Source: Mesoplasma grammopterae ATCC 49580
GTDB lineage: Bacteria > Bacillota_I > Bacilli_A > Mycoplasmatales > Mycoplasmataceae
Assembly (NCBI RefSeq): GCF_000701525.1
Contig: NZ_KL370789.1
Span: forward strand, 62,001 to 126,000
DNA length: 64,000 nt
Direction of reading: 5' to 3'
Shown: piece by piece, positions 45,053 through 60,117 of the stretch
Position numbering within the stretch: the stretch's first letter is position 1
Layout of the letters: each line of letters starts with the position of its first letter
Made by a program: the position numbers and the translations under genes
Notes under the pieces: generated by a model
Told to the model about the DNA's origin: nothing
Databases searched by the model: none
The model's input: the letters and a program-made list of their open reading frames with translations, nothing else

Positions 45053-45080
45053 TTGACAAAAAAAAAAAAAAAACCATAAT
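45053..45080 (+). promoter_or_regulatory. Promoter with a 16-A spacer, candidate phase-variable
   Basis: TTGACA at 45053-45058 and CATAAT at 45075-45080, separated by 16 bases that are almost all A: the unbroken A run covers 45058-45073. One more A would give a 17-base spacer. It lies upstream of the exported repeat-protein genes. A homopolymer between -35 and -10 is the architecture of slippage switches in mycoplasma surface genes such as vlp of M. hyorhinis. A leader of about 60 bases follows before the TTG start at 45150. Confidence 0.65.
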
Positions 45081-45149
45081 TAGATTATTCACAAAACTTA
45101 AGTTTTTACACTTTATCGTTTTGATTTTTAAAAGAAAGGTGGAGTCTCT

Positions 45150-46424
45150 TTGAAAAAAAATAAAAGAAAAATATTAGCATCTTTTATTATTCTTTTATTA
45201 ATAGTTGTATGATCTCTTTTTTTAGGAATTATGATTGTGAACGGTGGTGAAAATTCATCTTCAAAAAAAATAATTAGTTTTCAAGAAGTTAAAACTGATG
45301 TTGATAAATATACAAATGATAATACATTTTATGATTTTAAGAGTTACCAAGATGGCCTAAATGATTTAAATCTAGAAGGCGTTAATTTAACAGCATATCA
45401 AATATTATTAGAAAATAAACAATCTTCAGAATTAACTACATTAAGAGTAGAAGTTATTTTTAAATTAGAAGAAAACTATAAATGAAAAGAACTTATATCA
45501 GGTGATCAAAAAGTTGAATATCAAGTTGTTATTGATAAAAGACAGATAGTTAATAAGCAAGAGTTATTTGATTATGTACAAAACAGCCTAAATGAACAAG
45601 AATATTTATCTCAAGAAGAGTTGAATGTAAGATTTGAATATATAAAACAAGATTATGAAAAAAAATACCCTGATATTAAACTAGATTTAAGTACAAATAC
45701 AAATATTAATGGTGAAAATAAAACAAAATGAACAATTGATATTGAAGCATCTATTGATTTCAATCTATATAAATGAAATGATGGCGTTGAAGAAAAGTTT
45801 ATTATGAAAGAAATTAAAATTACAAAGGATATAAGTAAATTGGTTTATCAAGAAGAAATCAAAAAAGAATTAAACGAGATCATAGAAAAAATTAACACTA
45901 ACTCAATTAAAAACTATTCAATTAATGAAGTCATTCAAGAAGTCGATCAAAATTATTTTAAAAGTGCTAATGAAAAACTAAAAGGAACTTATATATTAAA
46001 CCAAACTGCAGAATATCAGCAACAAACTGAAGACGGTTTTAATATATACACATTAAAGATAAAAATAGGTTTAAATGATGGATATAAATGAGAACATGAC
46101 AGAAGTAAAGAAGTTAAGGAATTCAGTTTTCAAAACATTAAAATTAATACGAAAATAATTGATTTAAATCAAGTAATTGATGATTTAAAAGTATTAACAT
46201 CAATGAAATTTCAAAATACTAGTGAGTTAGAGGAAAAGATTGAAGAAATATCTAAATCAAGTAAAGGTTATAATTTAGATCTTATTAATAAAGATGAAAC
46301 AATGAAAGTAAACTTTATAGCAAATTTACAAATAAGTTTAAATGAAGATTATGTATGAAATGATCAAGAAAACACAAACGAGAATATAACTATTAAATTA
46401 GTTATTAATAAAATAGAAAAATAG
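45150..46424 (+). CDS. Exported/membrane-anchored repeat protein 1 of a tandem family
   Basis: A 424-residue protein with an N-terminal membrane anchor (LASFIILLLIVVWSLFLGIMI, about residues 9-29) and a long extracytoplasmic part. Four related units of about 90 residues follow, each ending in a hydrophobic strand and an aromatic-Trp pair such as NYKW, YKWND, GYKWEH or DYVWND. The start is TTG at 45150, in frame and behind AAAGGTGGAG; a downstream ATG at 45231 would remove the membrane anchor. All conserved tryptophans are TGA. No lipobox cysteine. The function is unknown; surface or secreted location is inferred. Confidence 0.7.
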
Positions 46425-52358: not shown

Positions 52359-52363
52359 TATAA

Positions 52364-52441
52364 CGTGTCTGGCACCGCCTTTCCTTAATTATCAATTATA
52401 TTTTAGCCAGACACATCACCCTAACCGGTGATTTTTTTATT
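52364..52441 (+). ncRNA. Candidate small RNA or transcribed leader with two hairpins
   Basis: A predicted 77-base transcript starting just before a perfect 9-bp helix GTGTCTGGC/GCCAGACAC (52365-52373 with 52406-52414), which closes a 32-base loop. The loop begins ACCGCCTTTCCTTAA: its CTTTCCTT is the complement of AAGGAAAG, a Shine-Dalgarno-type sequence. ACCG of the loop (52374-52377) can also pair with CGGT (52426-52429) in the next hairpin. A second hairpin ATCACC/GGTGAT followed by seven T is a terminator. The G+C content is far above the surroundings. It could be an independent RNA or a leader of the helicase gene at 52501. I do not recognise a known family. Confidence 0.55.
52415..52441 (+). 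terminator. Terminator of the candidate small RNA
   Basis: ATCACC/GGTGAT with a 6-base loop and a T7 tract. It would stop transcripts 60 bases before the helicase gene. Confidence 0.75.
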
Positions 52442-52458
52442 TTTATTCTGCTTTTGGA

Positions 52459-52500: not shown

Positions 52501-55494
52501 ATGAAAGATAAATTATTGCAAGATTTGCTATTAAATATTAATACTATTGATAATGTTGAATTTAAAGAACAAGCTAAAAATAAGAGTGATAAATGACTTA
52601 TAAATCAATTTCAAAATGTTTTGGAAAAAAAATTAAGTTCTTTTAATTCATTTAATCAGAAGCTTGAATTTATTAATGGTTTATTATCTAATGAGGAAAA
52701 ATTTACAGAATTTACTAATAAAAATAAAACTAAAAATAACATAAATTGTAATCTAAGTCTTAATGAACTAGTTGTTTCGTTTAAAGATTTTATTGAAGAA
52801 GAATTTTTAAATGCTAATAAGGTACTAATTATTTCTCCTTTTATAAGTTCGTTTATGGTAAATAAACTAAGAAATTGACTAACAAACAATAAAAATTTAA
52901 AAGTTAAAATAATAACTACAACTTTTGATGGTTCATCAAGATTTCTTTCATTAGAAACATTAGTTTATTTAGAAAAAGATTTTAAGGAAAGAATAGAGAT
53001 TAGAATTGAGAATTCTTTTAAAAATAATGGCTCAAGAATTCATATGAAAGCATATTGTTTTTTAAGAGAAGGCGGATTTAGTAATTTATACATTGGATCA
53101 AACAATTTTACAAGAACTGGAATAATGATAGGAAATGAATATTCAATAAAAATTAGTGAATTTAGGGAAAAAGAAATATTTAATAACTTTATTTTAGAGT
53201 TCAATCAATTATGAAAACAAGAATTAATTGATATAAATAATTATGAAGTTGTAAATAAAATGATATTGTCACAAATTTTTATTGATGAAATAAATAGAGA
53301 AAAAGAAAAAGAACAAACTGAAATAATTAATAATTTATCAAATAAGAAAAATAAATTGGAATTGTTTAATTATCAAAAGGACGTTATTGAAGTTATTAAT
53401 CAAAGGGAAAAAAAGGGAATTAATAAACACTTAATAGTAATGGCTACAGGAACTGGAAAAACAATAACAATTGCTAAGTATTTTGAAGAATTATTTTATA
53501 AAACGTCTAAACCTTTAAAGATTTTATTTTTAGCCCACCAAAAGGAAATTTTAGAACAAGGAATATCAACTTTTGAAAAAGTTATTCCAGGTTTTAAAAA
53601 TCAAGTTTGTGAGTTTTATGATCAAAAAAGTAAAATAGAAGACTTAAAACTAAAAAATTATATTTTTGCCACTTTTCAAAGTTTACTTAAAAATTTAAAC
53701 TTCATACAAAATTATAATTTTGATTTAGTTATTTTAGATGAAGTACATCATATTGAAGCGAAAAGTTATCAAAAAGTTTTTGATTTAGTTTCTTCAAATA
53801 CAAAAACTCTGATTGGATTAACAGCGACCCCACAAAGAACAGAAGGAATAGATATTAATAAATATTTCAATTATGAGTATGCATATGAATTGAGTTTATA
53901 TAATGCATTGTCAAATGATTTGCTTGCTCCATTTGATTATTACTTTATTCAAGATAAAACAGTTGATTTAACTGGTATTGATTTAAATAAAATAGAAAAA
54001 TTAAGTGAAATATTAAGCTCTGAACAAAGAAATAAATTTGTTTTAGAAAACATTAAAAAAATGATAGGAATAAATAATCGTGATACTTCAACGGTTCTAT
54101 TTTGTTCGTCTATTGAGCATGCAAATAAATTAAAAAAATTCCTGTGTGAAAATAATTTAAGATGTGAAACATTAACTAGTGAAAATAATAGAATTGAACG
54201 AGAAAATATAATTAAAAAATTTAAAAATAAAGAAATAAATTATTTATGTGTAAGGGATATATTAAATGAAGGGGTTGATGTGCCTAACATTGATAGAATA
54301 GTATTTTTAAGACCAACAAATTCATTGCTTATCTACTTGCAACAATTGGGAAGAGGTTTAAGAAAAACACCAGATAAAAAATTACAAATTTATGATTTTG
54401 TAAATAATGTTGATTTGTATGTTAACAAGCAATATGATCCATTTTTATTGTATAAAGCATTTAGAAAAGAAACAAATATTAAAATTAGTGAATTAATAAA
54501 TAATAATTTTAAAATTGGTTCTTTTTTACCAGCAGGGTCAGAACTATACATAGATTATTTAACTCGAAATGATTTAATTGAAAAAATTAGAAAGTATGAA
54601 TCAAATAAAAAAATAGATAATATAATTCTTGAATATTCTAAAGAATTAAGCTATGAAAATTACAAAAAAATGTTTATTGAAAATCAAATAAGAAATAACT
54701 TTACTCCATTTAAAATTTATTCGAAAGGTAAAACATTTATAAAGAGTAATTTTGATTTTGCAAAAGTTTTATCAAGAATGTCAATTAATAATAATAAACA
54801 AATTATAAGTAGATGAACTAAAATAGTAAAAACAAAAGAAATAAATTTAAATAATTTGGAAGATAAATTATTTATGGCAAATTTTTGTAATAATAAAATA
54901 ACAATGAATAATAAAGAATTTGAAAAAAACCTTTTAAAATATTGAGAGTTCATAAAAACTAGAACAACTGTCTTTGAAGAATTACTTTATTTATTTCAAT
55001 TTAAAATTGAATCTGAAACACTAATTGATAATGATATAGAAAATTACGAGTTATTAAGCATTGAATATTTAAAAGATATGTATGTTACTTATGACCAAAT
55101 TTATGTTCTTCTAAATAATGGAATAGAAAAAAATGAATTTAAAAAGAATTCATCTGTTCAAGGCATATTTAAGGCTTCTGAATCAAAATATGTAATATCA
55201 GCATCTTCTTTAACTCAAGAAAAAGAGCATAAGCATGCTAATTATTTTTCTGACAAAAATAAAGAATTAATTTGAGAATCACCTGATTCATGAAAATATG
55301 AAGATAAGGAAAAGATTGATTTAATATTAAATAAGTATTATGTTTTTTATCAATCACAAGAAACTGTTGAATTATTTGATGAAACTATTAGAAAATACAT
55401 AGGTAATGTTAAGTCTATTGAACTAAGAGAATCAATAACTAATAATAAAGAGAATAAGAAAGAAAAAATTAGATATAAATTTAAAATTTCATAA
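52501..55494 (+). CDS. PLD-nuclease/SF2 helicase fusion protein (DUF3427-type)
   Basis: A 997-residue protein. Residues about 80-250 form a phospholipase-D-type nuclease domain with His181-x-Lys183 (RIHMKAYCF) and Asn201 in YIGSNNFTRTG. Residues about 280-620 form a superfamily 2 helicase: Walker A MATGTGKTI with Lys320, DEVHH at 413-417, LTATPQRTEG, and QQLGRGLRKTPDK near 615. The 370-residue C-terminus occupies the place of DUF3427. This architecture is often found in restriction and phage-defence loci. A cytosine methyltransferase gene follows in the same direction. The ribosome binding site is GATGGTGA. Tryptophans are TGA. Confidence 0.85.
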
Positions 55495-55509: not shown

Positions 55510-55536
55510 TTGCAAAAAAAAAAAAAAAAGATAGAA
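55510..55536 (+). promoter_or_regulatory. Promoter with a 15-A spacer before the cytosine methyltransferase, candidate phase-variable
   Basis: A -35-like TTGCAA (55510-55515) and TAGAAT (55531-55536), one mismatch from TATAAT, are separated by 15 bases. The unbroken A run covers 55514-55528. Two extra A would give the 17-base optimum. It lies in the 68-base gap between the PLD-helicase stop and the methyltransferase ATG, so it would drive the methyltransferase and the genes behind it. Confidence 0.6.
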
Positions 55537-55562
55537 TCTTTCTTAGATGGGAAGATTTTTTT

Positions 55563-56933
55563 ATGCAAAAAATTAAAGTTTTCGAAACATTTTCGGGTAT
55601 AGGAGCTCAACATAAAGCTCTTGAAATTTTAAAAAGTAATCATATTCTTGATTATGAAGTAGTTGCCACAAGTGAATGAGATATTTGAGCTAATATATCT
55701 TATAATGCAATTCATTATAATAATCTTAATGTTGCTGTAAATTTAACAAATGATGAATTAGATTCTTTTTTATTAAAATTTACACATTCAAATGATTCTA
55801 AAAGTCCAATGTCCAGACAACAAGTTCTAAATTTGCCTCGCTTAGTTAAAGAGAACTTATATAGTTCTATTAAAAATTCCAATAATTTAGGAAGTATTAC
55901 TGAAATAAAAGCTGATGCCTTAATTAAAAGTATAGATAATTTTGATTTACTTACTTATTCTTTCCCATGTCAAGACTTATCAACTGCTGGAAGTTTTCAT
56001 GGAAATAATAAAGGAATGAAAAAAAATAGTGGCACAAGATCTGGATTATTATGAGAGATTGAAAGGATACTTAAAGAATTAAAGAAAATTAATCGATTAC
56101 CAAAATACTTATTATTGGAAAACGTTAATAATATGCTCTCTGAAAGACATAAAGATGACTATATAGATTGATTGAACTTTCTAAATACAATAGGTTACAA
56201 TACTCAAACTTATGCACTAGAAGCAAATGAATATGGAACTCCTCAAAACAGGAAAAGAATTTTTGCCTTTAGCGTTAGAAAAAATTTAACTAACGATTTT
56301 AAAGATACTTTTCGTGAGAGTAAAGGTCAAATAATTAAAGAAATTAATACTCCTATTGACGTAAGCAAAAAAATGAATATTAGAAAAGATATATTTGAAG
56401 TTCTTAAAGAAAACTATTCTATTAAAAAATACAAAGATGAGGCAATGAAAGCTACTCCTAATAAAACAAGAAGCAGAAAAAAGATGTTTGAAAATAATAA
56501 AATGCTTTCAACTAAGGTTGACACCAACATAAATAAACATAAAAATAAAACTTTTATAAAAGATGACAAAACTTATAGTAAATTTTCCTCAACAATTACA
56601 ACCAAGCAAGATAGAGATCCTAACGGAGGAGTTATAAACTTAAAAAAAACTGTTTTACAAGATAAATTTAATGACAAAATGAACATTCAAAAAGCTAACT
56701 TCAGACTTTTAACGCCAAGAGAATGTTTTTTATTAATGGGTTTTGAAGAAAAAGACTTTCAAAAAATTTTAGATATTTCAAATAAAATAAATCTTTCTCA
56801 TATGAAGAAAAATAAATATTTAGGTGAGGCAGTTTTATATAGACAAAGCGGCAATAGTATAGTTGTTAATGTTTTAGTCGCCATATTTAATAAAATTGCA
56901 GAAATCGAGGAGAAGCTCAAAAATGAAAACTAA
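55563..56933 (+). CDS. DNA cytosine-5 methyltransferase, M.SssI-like
   Basis: A 456-residue C5 methyltransferase. Motif I is VFETFSGIGAQHKALE, the catalytic Cys136 is in YSFPCQDLSTAG, motif VI LLLENVNNML, motif VIII TPQNRKRIF, and motif X YRQSGNSIVVNVL. The blocks FSGIGAQ-KALE, NFDLLTYSFPCQDLS, KGMKKNSGTRSGLLWEIER and LPKYLLLENV closely follow M.SssI of Spiroplasma, the CpG methyltransferase (386 residues). The variable region between motifs VIII and IX (about residues 240-375) is larger and different, so the target may not be CG. Expression may be switched by the A15 promoter. The ribosome binding site is weak (GGGAAG). Confidence 0.92.
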
Positions 56934-57564
56934 TGATTTTGAAAATGAAGTTAAAAAATTATATTTTAAAATTTCTGGATTAGAATTTGATTTAACAAAT
57001 CCTAAATGATGAAAAGTTAAAACAAGTGTTAAAAGCATGATAGAAACTTTATATAAAATTAAAGGTAATTTTAAAGAATTAAATTTTACTTATAATGCAG
57101 AAACTAATAAGTTTTTTGTTAACGGAGATTTACAAGGTATTGTTGATAGCACATTTAGACAATACTTTATTATCGGTTACATTTTAGGTGTTTTTGAAAT
57201 TGATAAAGACATTATTTTTGCTTCATCATTTCATGATTATGTTATTAAAAAAGAAAAATTTATGCTAACAAAAGAATTTTGTAACAAAGTTAATTATCAA
57301 ATGTTTTTGATAGATTTAAATTTATTAAAAAGAATTAAAGAAGTTATAATGTGAGCAAATCCTGATTCATTTATTTGAGAACCAACAGTAAAATTTGTTT
57401 TTACTTTATGTAGTTATGCTGTTGCTTTCAAAAATAATTCACTTGAACTAATGATAAATTTTTTAGATTTATATAAGCAAAAGAAAAATACAAAAATCAC
57501 AGGTGCAATTGATGAATATAATTATCAAAAAGAAATAGCAGTTAAGTTTGCTAATTTTATATAA
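56923..57564 (+). CDS. Unknown protein between the cytosine methyltransferase and the GmrSD-like gene
   Basis: A 213-residue soluble protein without a recognised motif. It overlaps the methyltransferase end by 11 bases, with GAGGAG 10 bases before its ATG, and the next gene begins 11 bases later, so the three genes form one operon. The sequence has a NPKWWKVK segment near residue 28 (both Trp by TGA) and an aromatic, hydrophobic core (RQYFIIGYILGVFEIDKDII). Given the position it may be a subunit or regulator of the defence system. Confidence 0.65.
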
Positions 57565-57575
57565 AGGAGTTAAAG

Positions 57576-60089
57576 ATGGAAGTCAATTTATTTAAAAAAT
57601 TTTATGATTACTTATCACCACAAGAAAGATTAGATTTAAAAATTATTGAAACAAAAATATCAAGTGAGCAAGATGAAATTGCCAATAATATTTCAATTGA
57701 AGTATCTAAGATATTAGAATCAAAAATGAATCGAATTTTAGAAGAGAATCAAATTTATCTATCTATATATGAAAAAACTTCAAAGGTAATTTTTGATAAA
57801 ATTTGCTATTTGTATTCAGAAGAAAAAAAGCTTGAATCAGGTTATAGAAAAAATACTCAAATACCTAAGATAATATTCTCAACTTTTTATTATATAAGAA
57901 ATTGAAGAAATGATGAGGGTCATCCAAGCGAGATAGGAATTAAAAGAAGTTTTGCGGATACAATTCACTTAGTTAAGTGTTTTGATTTAGTATTATCATT
58001 TTTAATTAATTTTTTTAATGATTCAGACTTTATGATAGATGATTTTGATGAAGATTTTCTTTTAAAAATTTTAAATCAACGCAAACATTTTATAGATGAA
58101 ATAATCGATGAAAATAAAAAAGCAGATGTAGGATCTATTAAACTTGGAAAAATAGATATAAGTTCGTTTGTACTTAATCCTGAAATAAATTTCTTTATAC
58201 CATCTTATCAAAGAAAATATAGATGAGATTCAGAGACTTGTAAAGAACTAGTAAATGGAATACTAAAAAAAGCAAACAGTATTGATGATGAATATTTTGG
58301 AACAATTGCTGTAACAATTGAAGAAAATACAAGAAATAATGATGTTAGAACAGTCAGATTAATAGATGGACAACAAAGAGTAACAACATCACTTATTATT
58401 TTTAGAGTAATTTTTGATTTATGAAAAGAAAAACAATTAAACTCTTATGAAGAAAATATTTTAGAAATGCCAAATGAATTACAAGAAACCTTTGTTAACG
58501 TAGGTTGTTCTAATAAATATAAAAATGTAACAGGAAATCAAGTTGAAAATAAATCAATAGATTTTATTTTAAATGAAAATTTATCTTATAATGAAAGAAA
58601 AACGAAAATAACAAATTTTGAAACAATCGGTAAATCACAAGTTGCTAAAAATTATTTTGCCATTCATGATATGTTGGTTTCATTGTCTCAAGATGAATTA
58701 AGTTCTTTCTATCAAAGATATGCATACAAATTTTTAATTTCATGTGTTGATTTTAATAAAACTCCTGCCGAAGAAATGGAAATATTTGAAACATTAAATT
58801 CAAAAGGCACTGAATTAGATTCTTTTGATATGATTAAAAACTTTTTATTTAATCTAGTAGATAAAGATATTTTTTTAGAAAAAGAAGAAGAAATTACAAA
58901 AATATTTAATGAATATATCAGCTTTGATGATTTAAAAATTGAAGAAGATAAAAAAAGAAAAGTTCAAGAAGCATTTTTATTTAGTTATTGTGAATATAAA
59001 TTATTAGAGTTTAAACAATCAGATAATAATTTAAGCAAAAATAAAAAGTCAATTTTAAAACATTTTAAAAAAATATATGAAACTAAAAATAATATTGATG
59101 TAGATGAATTTAAAAAAATAGTTTCAGAAATTGGAAAATATGTTCTTTTAGCTAAATCATTTGAGTCAAAAAATTATGAAAATAATACGTATGATTTATT
59201 ATTTCCATTAAGATATAACATTGCAAATATTGCACATAAGGATATTTCTTTATTTATAATCTTTTATATAATTGATGTTTTTGCAAAAAATAAATGAGAT
59301 TCTTATAGTAAAACAATAAATTATAAACATAAATTAGAATTAATGAAAAATACCTTATTTGAATTTGAAAAATGAATAATTTCATTATTGCAAGTCTCAG
59401 GAACTGGTCAATCATTAACGAAACCAATTTTAAGATTATTTAGATTTTTAAATTTCTTTGATACCTCTAATCGTGCTATACAAGAACAAATTCCAAACAT
59501 GATAAAAAAATGATTATCAATGGAAGAAGAAAATTCATTTACATTTCAAAGTAAAGAACAAAAAAAATTATTACTTGAAAATATTGATTTAAAAATTCCT
59601 ACAAGTGAACAGCTATATAATTCTTTAATAAGCAAAAAAGTTCAAGATAAAAATATAGCAATGGTTTTACTAAAAAGATTAGAAAGTAAATTAATTAATA
59701 ATTGAGAAATAAAACGAGACAAAAATTCATTAGAACATATTATGCCAAAAACAATTAAAAAAACAAAATGAATAGATTATTTAAAAGATAATAACTTACA
59801 ATTAAATGATAAAGAAATTTTTGATAAACATGCAGAATATATAGATAAGATAGGAAATTATTTAATACTTGACAAAAATAAGGAAAATTCTAAATTATCA
59901 AATGCTGAATTTAGTTTAAAAAGAATGGATTTTGAAAAATGAAATAATCCATTGTGTACATTGATTTTTAATTTTAGCAGTAACGCCAATTTGTTAACAA
60001 CAGAAAAATTTGGATTTAAAGAAATTGATGAAAGATCAAAAGCTATTTCAAAAATCATAGTTGAAGAAATTTATTTTAAAAACAATTAA
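57576..60089 (+). CDS. GmrSD-like protein (DUF262 + DUF1524)
   Basis: An 837-residue protein. After an N-terminal helical part of about 200 residues, a DUF262 domain shows PSYQRKYRW (209-217) and LIDGQQRVTT (DGQQR at 264-268), the nucleotide-binding ParB-like site of GmrS. Near the C-terminus is a DUF1524 HNH-type nuclease: LEHIMPKTIKK with His721, then IGNYLILDKNKENSKLSNAEF. GmrSD enzymes are type IV, modification-dependent restriction systems that cut DNA with modified cytosines. The N-terminal extension is not part of the standard enzyme. It lies 11 bases after the unknown gene, behind AAAGGAG. Confidence 0.87.
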
Positions 60090-60091
60090 CT

Positions 60092-60117
60092 GCTTAGTAT
60101 ATCTAAGCTTTTTTTGT
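60092..60117 (+). terminator. Terminator at the end of the defence island
   Basis: A 6-bp stem GCTTAG/CTAAGC with a 5-base loop and a T7 tract, just after the GmrSD-like stop. Confidence 0.78.

Follow-up and report, generated by a model that had tools for sequence, protein, structure and literature searches.

The locus examined here raises the question of whether a poly-A tract upstream of a cytosine DNA methyltransferase gene in Mesoplasma grammopterae ATCC 49580 serves as a slippage-prone control of its expression, or whether it belongs to a fixed promoter, a terminator or an operator. The tract lies within the window, that is, the whole stretch of 64,000 nucleotides that was analysed, and the features on which the argument depends are the following.

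45054 to 45081, plus strand: second poly-A promoter, TTGAC A16 CCATAAT, before the gene of a 424-aa protein (45150-46424)
52501 to 55494, plus strand: SauUSI-type nuclease P0002, 997 aa, with PLD, SF2 ATPase, coupler and predicted SRA-fold C-terminus
55510 to 55515, plus strand: -35-like TTGCAA, from the sequence and comparison with orthologue promoters
55514 to 55529, plus strand: run of 16 A making up most of the -35/-10 spacer, from the sequence; 16-18 in orthologues
55532 to 55537, plus strand: -10 box TAGAAT, from the sequence, orthologue comparison and the M. florum consensus
55533 to 55559, plus strand: inverted repeat (predicted hairpin) with arms at 55533-55543 and at 55549-55559 and a T7 (55556-55562) at its end, just before the ATG
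55545, plus strand: predicted transcription start, an A 7 nt past the -10, placed by the M. florum rule
55563 to 56933, plus strand: C5-cytosine DNA methyltransferase, 456 aa under code 4 (PF00145)
56923 to 57564, plus strand: 213-aa protein with no assigned family, its start overlapping the methyltransferase end
57576 to 60089, plus strand: DUF262 + GmrSD_C protein, 837 aa, SspE/GmrSD-like (PF03235, PF07510; PADLOC)
60092 to 60115, plus strand: intrinsic terminator at the end of the operon, from a terminator search

The elements of the methyltransferase promoter follow one another as TTGC, 16 A, GA and TAGAAT, such that the homopolymer sits between the predicted -35 and -10, as in promoters of the vlp type, and the spacer from TTGCAA to TAGAAT amounts to 16 nt (14 A plus GA). 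An earlier note on this DNA had recognized the layout but gave the run as 15 A, and its further suggestion that a 15-base spacer places this copy in a low state goes back to the same miscount; besides, the spacer ranges from 15 to 19 nt across 13 species, and the -35 box is not conserved in M. florum promoters (PMC7745072). In M. florum, the -10 consensus is TAWAAT and transcription starts 6-7 nt past it, mostly at A (PMC7745072). With the tract in place, a TGN extension does not fit, so that RNA polymerase probably needs the TTG of the -35 here, and the stretch 55510-55562 is best explained as the promoter and leader of an operon encoding the methyltransferase, the 213-aa protein and the DUF262 protein. 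The note had also spoken of two unlinked loci with one layout: the second tract does exist, its A16 lying at 45058, but the two lie 10 kb apart on one contig. The product of 45150-46424 is N-terminally anchored and has no Pfam match.

The methyltransferase reading frame is intact with TGA read as Trp, matches PF00145 with an E value of 7.7e-53 and carries intact PCQ and ENV motifs. Its description as SssI-like is accurate for the catalytic half only, with residues 3-250 matching the M.SssI/M.MpeI family (4dkj, E 4e-49); the target-recognition region, from about 250 to 375, aligns poorly with 4dkj, and overall the enzyme shares 33% identity with an SssI-like protein from the family. The DUF262 gene starts 11 nt past the 213-aa gene, and since these two and the methyltransferase gene form one unit, the promoter would drive all three. 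A modification enzyme beside a DUF262 protein is also found in Ssp/Dnd-type systems with SspE (DUF262 + DUF1524), whereas the M. grammopterae operon encodes C5 methylation, not phosphorothioation, and the similarity is weak.

The upstream gene, previously taken for a helicase, does encode an SF2 ATPase domain, but the whole protein is a SauUSI-type nuclease. Its best solved relative is SauUSI (7clg, E 4.7e-57), an ATP-driven restriction enzyme that depends on 5mC and has a target domain with an SRA fold (PMC7913695). That sequence match ends at residue 769, and the structure of the C-terminal 300 residues was predicted from 12 orthologues (pLDDT 84.5); the top structural match of the model is the SauUSI coupler plus SRA (7clg, VIA Z 10.9), followed by the SRA domains of AspBHI, LpnPI, ScoMcrA, SUVH5 and MspJI. 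P0002 thus combines all parts shared with this type IV enzyme (PLD, SF2 ATPase, coupler and, by prediction, SRA fold) in one chain and, on the strength of the model, would be expected to attack DNA that carries 5mC; its neighbor is an enzyme that makes 5mC. It differs from SauUSI as known in adjoining a C5-methyltransferase operon, its own target being read from prediction. An NgoAVII/CglI-type enzyme was considered on the basis of a Pfam RE_NgoFVII match, the SauUSI type being preferred, and the idea of P0002 as an ordinary restriction enzyme shielded by the methyltransferase is weakened by the predicted SRA-fold C-terminus. A second SauUSI-like gene, about 36-37% identical to P0002, lies at G000:C2:132073-134625 and has relatives in most family genomes.

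Could such a tract arise by chance? As the DNA has 22% GC, hexamer matches carry no weight alone, and promoter-like matches were not enriched around the locus (72 in 7.9 kb, where shuffles gave 66 +/- 7.6); the presence of two A16 runs within the 64-kb window is likewise unremarkable, 10 of 100 shuffles doing as well. In pattern searches over the whole 807 kb genome, a single A/T run was 10 long, lengths of 11-14 did not occur and twelve runs measured 15-19, so that the length distribution is bimodal and the runs of 15-19 form a separate class. Sorted by eye, these twelve comprise eight terminator-like U-tracts beside hairpins, three promoter-like runs (45058, 55514 and C1:48588) and one ambiguous case. 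Hairpin terminators with a pure T15-T17 tail account for most of the long A/T runs (e.g. L031, L032 and L036-L039). The strongest evidence against chance is the retention of the tract before the orthologous gene in other genera.

The alignment of the tract in relatives that the note had proposed bears this out: TTG, A16-18 and TAnnnT precede methyltransferase orthologues in 13 genomes of the family, M. grammopterae included, from four genus groups (L001, L002, L006, L007, L009, L010, L011 and L013-L018), the named relatives in the family being Mesoplasma and Williamsoniiplasma, while the names Spiroplasma and Mesoplasma for the other genus groups are inferred. Both TTG and TAnnnT are present in all 13, and the methyltransferases of these relatives share 53-75% protein identity with the M. 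grammopterae enzyme. Fourfold-degenerate sites are saturated between the tract-bearing orthologues (median identity 0.42), so a pure 16-nt run is not expected to persist by common descent alone, and selection probably keeps the tract before the methyltransferase. With one genome per species compared, the A-run is near constant, at 16 in nine of the 13 promoters (sd 0.75), while the -35/-10 spacer varies from 15 to 19 (sd 1.3); it is therefore the run that is conserved and not the spacing. A 14th locus, L022, reads TTGC-T15-ACAGGATAAT, keeping the otherwise invariant TTG with a T-run where the others have an A-run, possibly an independent homopolymer. At a dead methyltransferase locus (G011, L023), the tract is interrupted by T's (AAAAAAATAAAAAAAT...) and the TTG is lost.

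Seven full-length family loci have no tract (L003, which is M. florum-like, L004, L005, L008, L012, L019 and L020), and outside the family no run longer than 8 occurred within 200 nt upstream in 77 of 77 loci, the named-genome scan having supplied 80. In the methyltransferase tree, whose branch support is poor, tract-bearing loci do not form one clade, and a search of viral contigs and plasmids gave only distant homologues, unsuited to gauging tract variation. The tract accompanies the nuclease: 11 of the 12 loci with the nuclease upstream carry it, as against 3 of the 10 without (Fisher p 0.006, an optimistic value as the loci are related). Two loci without the nuclease (L006 and L010) also have both A-tract and hairpin; in G042 the nuclease is broken, with methyltransferase and tract intact, and the upstream region of P0002 itself has no long homopolymer. 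At L352, the methyltransferase promoter occurs as an orphan, its gene missing (G040:C1:412300-414500; TTGC A16 GATAGAAT ... TTTTTTTATTAGTAAA).

Between the A-run and the ATG, a hairpin is predicted in 13 of 13 orthologue leaders, with z-scores from -1.7 to -4.9 in the eight compared with shuffles; that of M. grammopterae has -9.4 kcal/mol and a z-score of -2.55, and a plain terminator scan of the locus surroundings did not report it. Its 5' arm overlaps the -10 and its 3' arm covers the ribosome-binding region, while the predicted start falls within the loop or borders it in all 13 leaders, so that the promoter's own RNA would lack most of the 5' arm; the RNA from the predicted start shows no special structure (z -0.43). 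Only read-through transcripts of the upstream gene would hence form the hairpin with its U-run. A stem followed by a U-run, as in an intrinsic terminator, is found at the M. grammopterae locus and in eight relatives, the U-run being missing in four of the 13 (L006, L011, L014 and L017). The hairpin is thus likely to act as a terminator of read-through RNA or a mask of its ribosome-binding site, an arrangement that would insulate the operon from upstream transcription. Its position between promoter and ATG argues against expression from the upstream gene, and if it blocks read-through RNA, the operon would rely on its own promoter. A likely reason for separate control is the danger that unplanned methylation would pose, given that the upstream nuclease is expected to cut DNA carrying 5mC.

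We slightly favor the interpretation that the poly-A spacer is a slippage-prone control of expression of the methyltransferase operon. A's gained or lost in replication would change the distance between -35 and -10, the slippage would go unrepaired without MutS, and the altered distance would change how strongly all genes of the operon are expressed, as in the vlp genes of M. hyorhinis. The genome background permits slippage as far as mismatch repair is concerned, MutS (MutS_V) being absent in 7 of 7 genomes of the genus, with the control positive in 11 of 14; this absence and the conservation across species both fit slippage-prone control. A phasevarion of the regulon type, as the note had envisaged, seems considerably less probable.

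The main competitor, which we regard as unlikely but deserving of weight, is a fixed promoter in which the poly(dA:dT) spacer is kept because it is rigid or binds a protein, without its length acting as a switch. The A-run stays at about 16 from one species to the next, and terminator T-runs and insertion-sequence A-runs are equally long, so that a length of 16 may reflect a mutational equilibrium and not a tuned switch. The insertion-sequence-like copies of G042 (L316-L345; a family of a probable Spiroplasma) carry TTGT-A16-GTCAA, most tract copies with exactly 16 A and diverged flanks, and this near-invariance counts against fast slippage. The lack of a conserved -35 in M. florum (PMC7745072) also favors the fixed promoter, for it weakens any mechanism that works through the spacer. 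Against it stand the recurrence of the poly-A class before contingency-type genes, the T-run in place of the A-run in L022, the slippage to be expected of such a run without MutS, and the vlp genes as a direct precedent for output depending on length.

Much less probable is that tract and inverted repeat mainly terminate transcription of the upstream nuclease gene, possibly from both sides, with the likeness to a promoter secondary. Most other A/T runs of 15-19 nt in the genome do flank hairpins, and the leader hairpin ends in T7, but here, on the coding strand, the run precedes the hairpin on its 5' side and the -10 separates the two, no convergent gene stands on the other side, the layout is kept with a different upstream gene in L006 and L010, and TTG and TAnnnT are retained in 13 of 13. 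Least probable of all is that the inverted repeat is a DNA operator for autorepression by the methyltransferase or a partner, the A-tract being incidental: autorepression is known for some C5-methyltransferases and in all 13 leaders the repeat reaches from the -10 into the ribosome-binding region, but its arm sequences differ between species while pairing, including G-U pairs, is kept, which fits RNA better than a constant protein-binding site, and a U-run follows the stem in most leaders.

Slippage-prone control of a promoter has precedents in mollicutes. The vlp promoters of M. hyorhinis switch by poly-A length (Citti and Wise 1995, as cited in PMC10502178), and the M. mycoides Vmm promoter switches via dinucleotide repeats in its spacer (Persson 2002, as cited in PMC10502178). 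The M. grammopterae locus shares with vlp a poly-A tract in the promoter region and with Vmm a repeat in the spacer; both of those products are surface proteins, the vlp genes encoding lipoproteins, and both switches have been demonstrated, whereas here a poly-A tract, whose switching we infer from sequence, heads a methyltransferase operon with a hairpin at its start and a nuclease upstream. Phase-variable methyltransferases with slippage-prone repeats are also known in mycoplasmas, namely M.MmyCI, with AG repeats (PMC3498834), and in M. agalactiae a mod gene and a type II enzyme (PMC9465063), but their repeats lie in the coding region and act by frameshift rather than in the promoter. The note had called promoter-homopolymer control notable for this group; poly-A promoter switching is already known from vlp, and what is new is its apparent target, a methyltransferase beside a 5mC-directed nuclease. 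A literature search of limited scope retrieved no report of a Spiroplasma or Mesoplasma methyltransferase under the control of a promoter homopolymer.

If the switching is real, a methyltransferase operon under promoter-homopolymer control has been kept over several genera of near-minimal bacteria, with a neighboring nuclease predicted to attack the same kind of modification that the operon makes. One might speculate, although we think it doubtful, that slippage lets cells choose between 5mC self-marking, together with the DUF262 effector, and tolerating the SauUSI-type nuclease that attacks this mark; with the same reserve, such a conflict would be one of phase-variable, built-in modification against modification-dependent restriction and not a conventional restriction-modification phasevarion. 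In these genetically simple mollicutes, it would be possible to test how 5mC self-marking can persist beside a 5mC-directed nuclease, and whether slippage provides the answer.

Elsewhere in the family, poly-A promoters head genes for lipoproteins, FtsX-like permeases, ABC ATPases, dndC and a second C5-methyltransferase, all of them typical contingency genes, and they make up a sizeable class in Spiroplasma and Mesoplasma that includes C5-methyltransferases and dndC. The dndC gene of L206 (G032:C1:458301-459801; TIGR03183 above cut-off) has a TTGC-A17-TC-TACAAT promoter, making phase-variable phosphorothioation possible. The second C5-methyltransferase of G029 (L204, G029:C1:932483-935183) has its own TTGT-A17-CAA-TAGAAT promoter and a similar leader, and a permease-like gene (MKKSIFLYLKQGIKG...; FtsX-like by eye, with no Pfam match) has an A15-A18 promoter in five genomes of one genus group (L212, L216, L219, L223 and L228).

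Upstream of the nuclease gene, an element of roughly 79 nt at 52362-52442 (GTGTCTGGCACCGCC...GCCAGACAC) is followed by a terminator hairpin and T-run and has TATAAT just upstream. An Rfam scan of the window returned one tRNA only, with no match for this element, which was not found in the rest of the family either. It is 97-100% identical in 7 of 7 genomes of the genus, has a fold z-score of -4.3 and looks like an undescribed small RNA.
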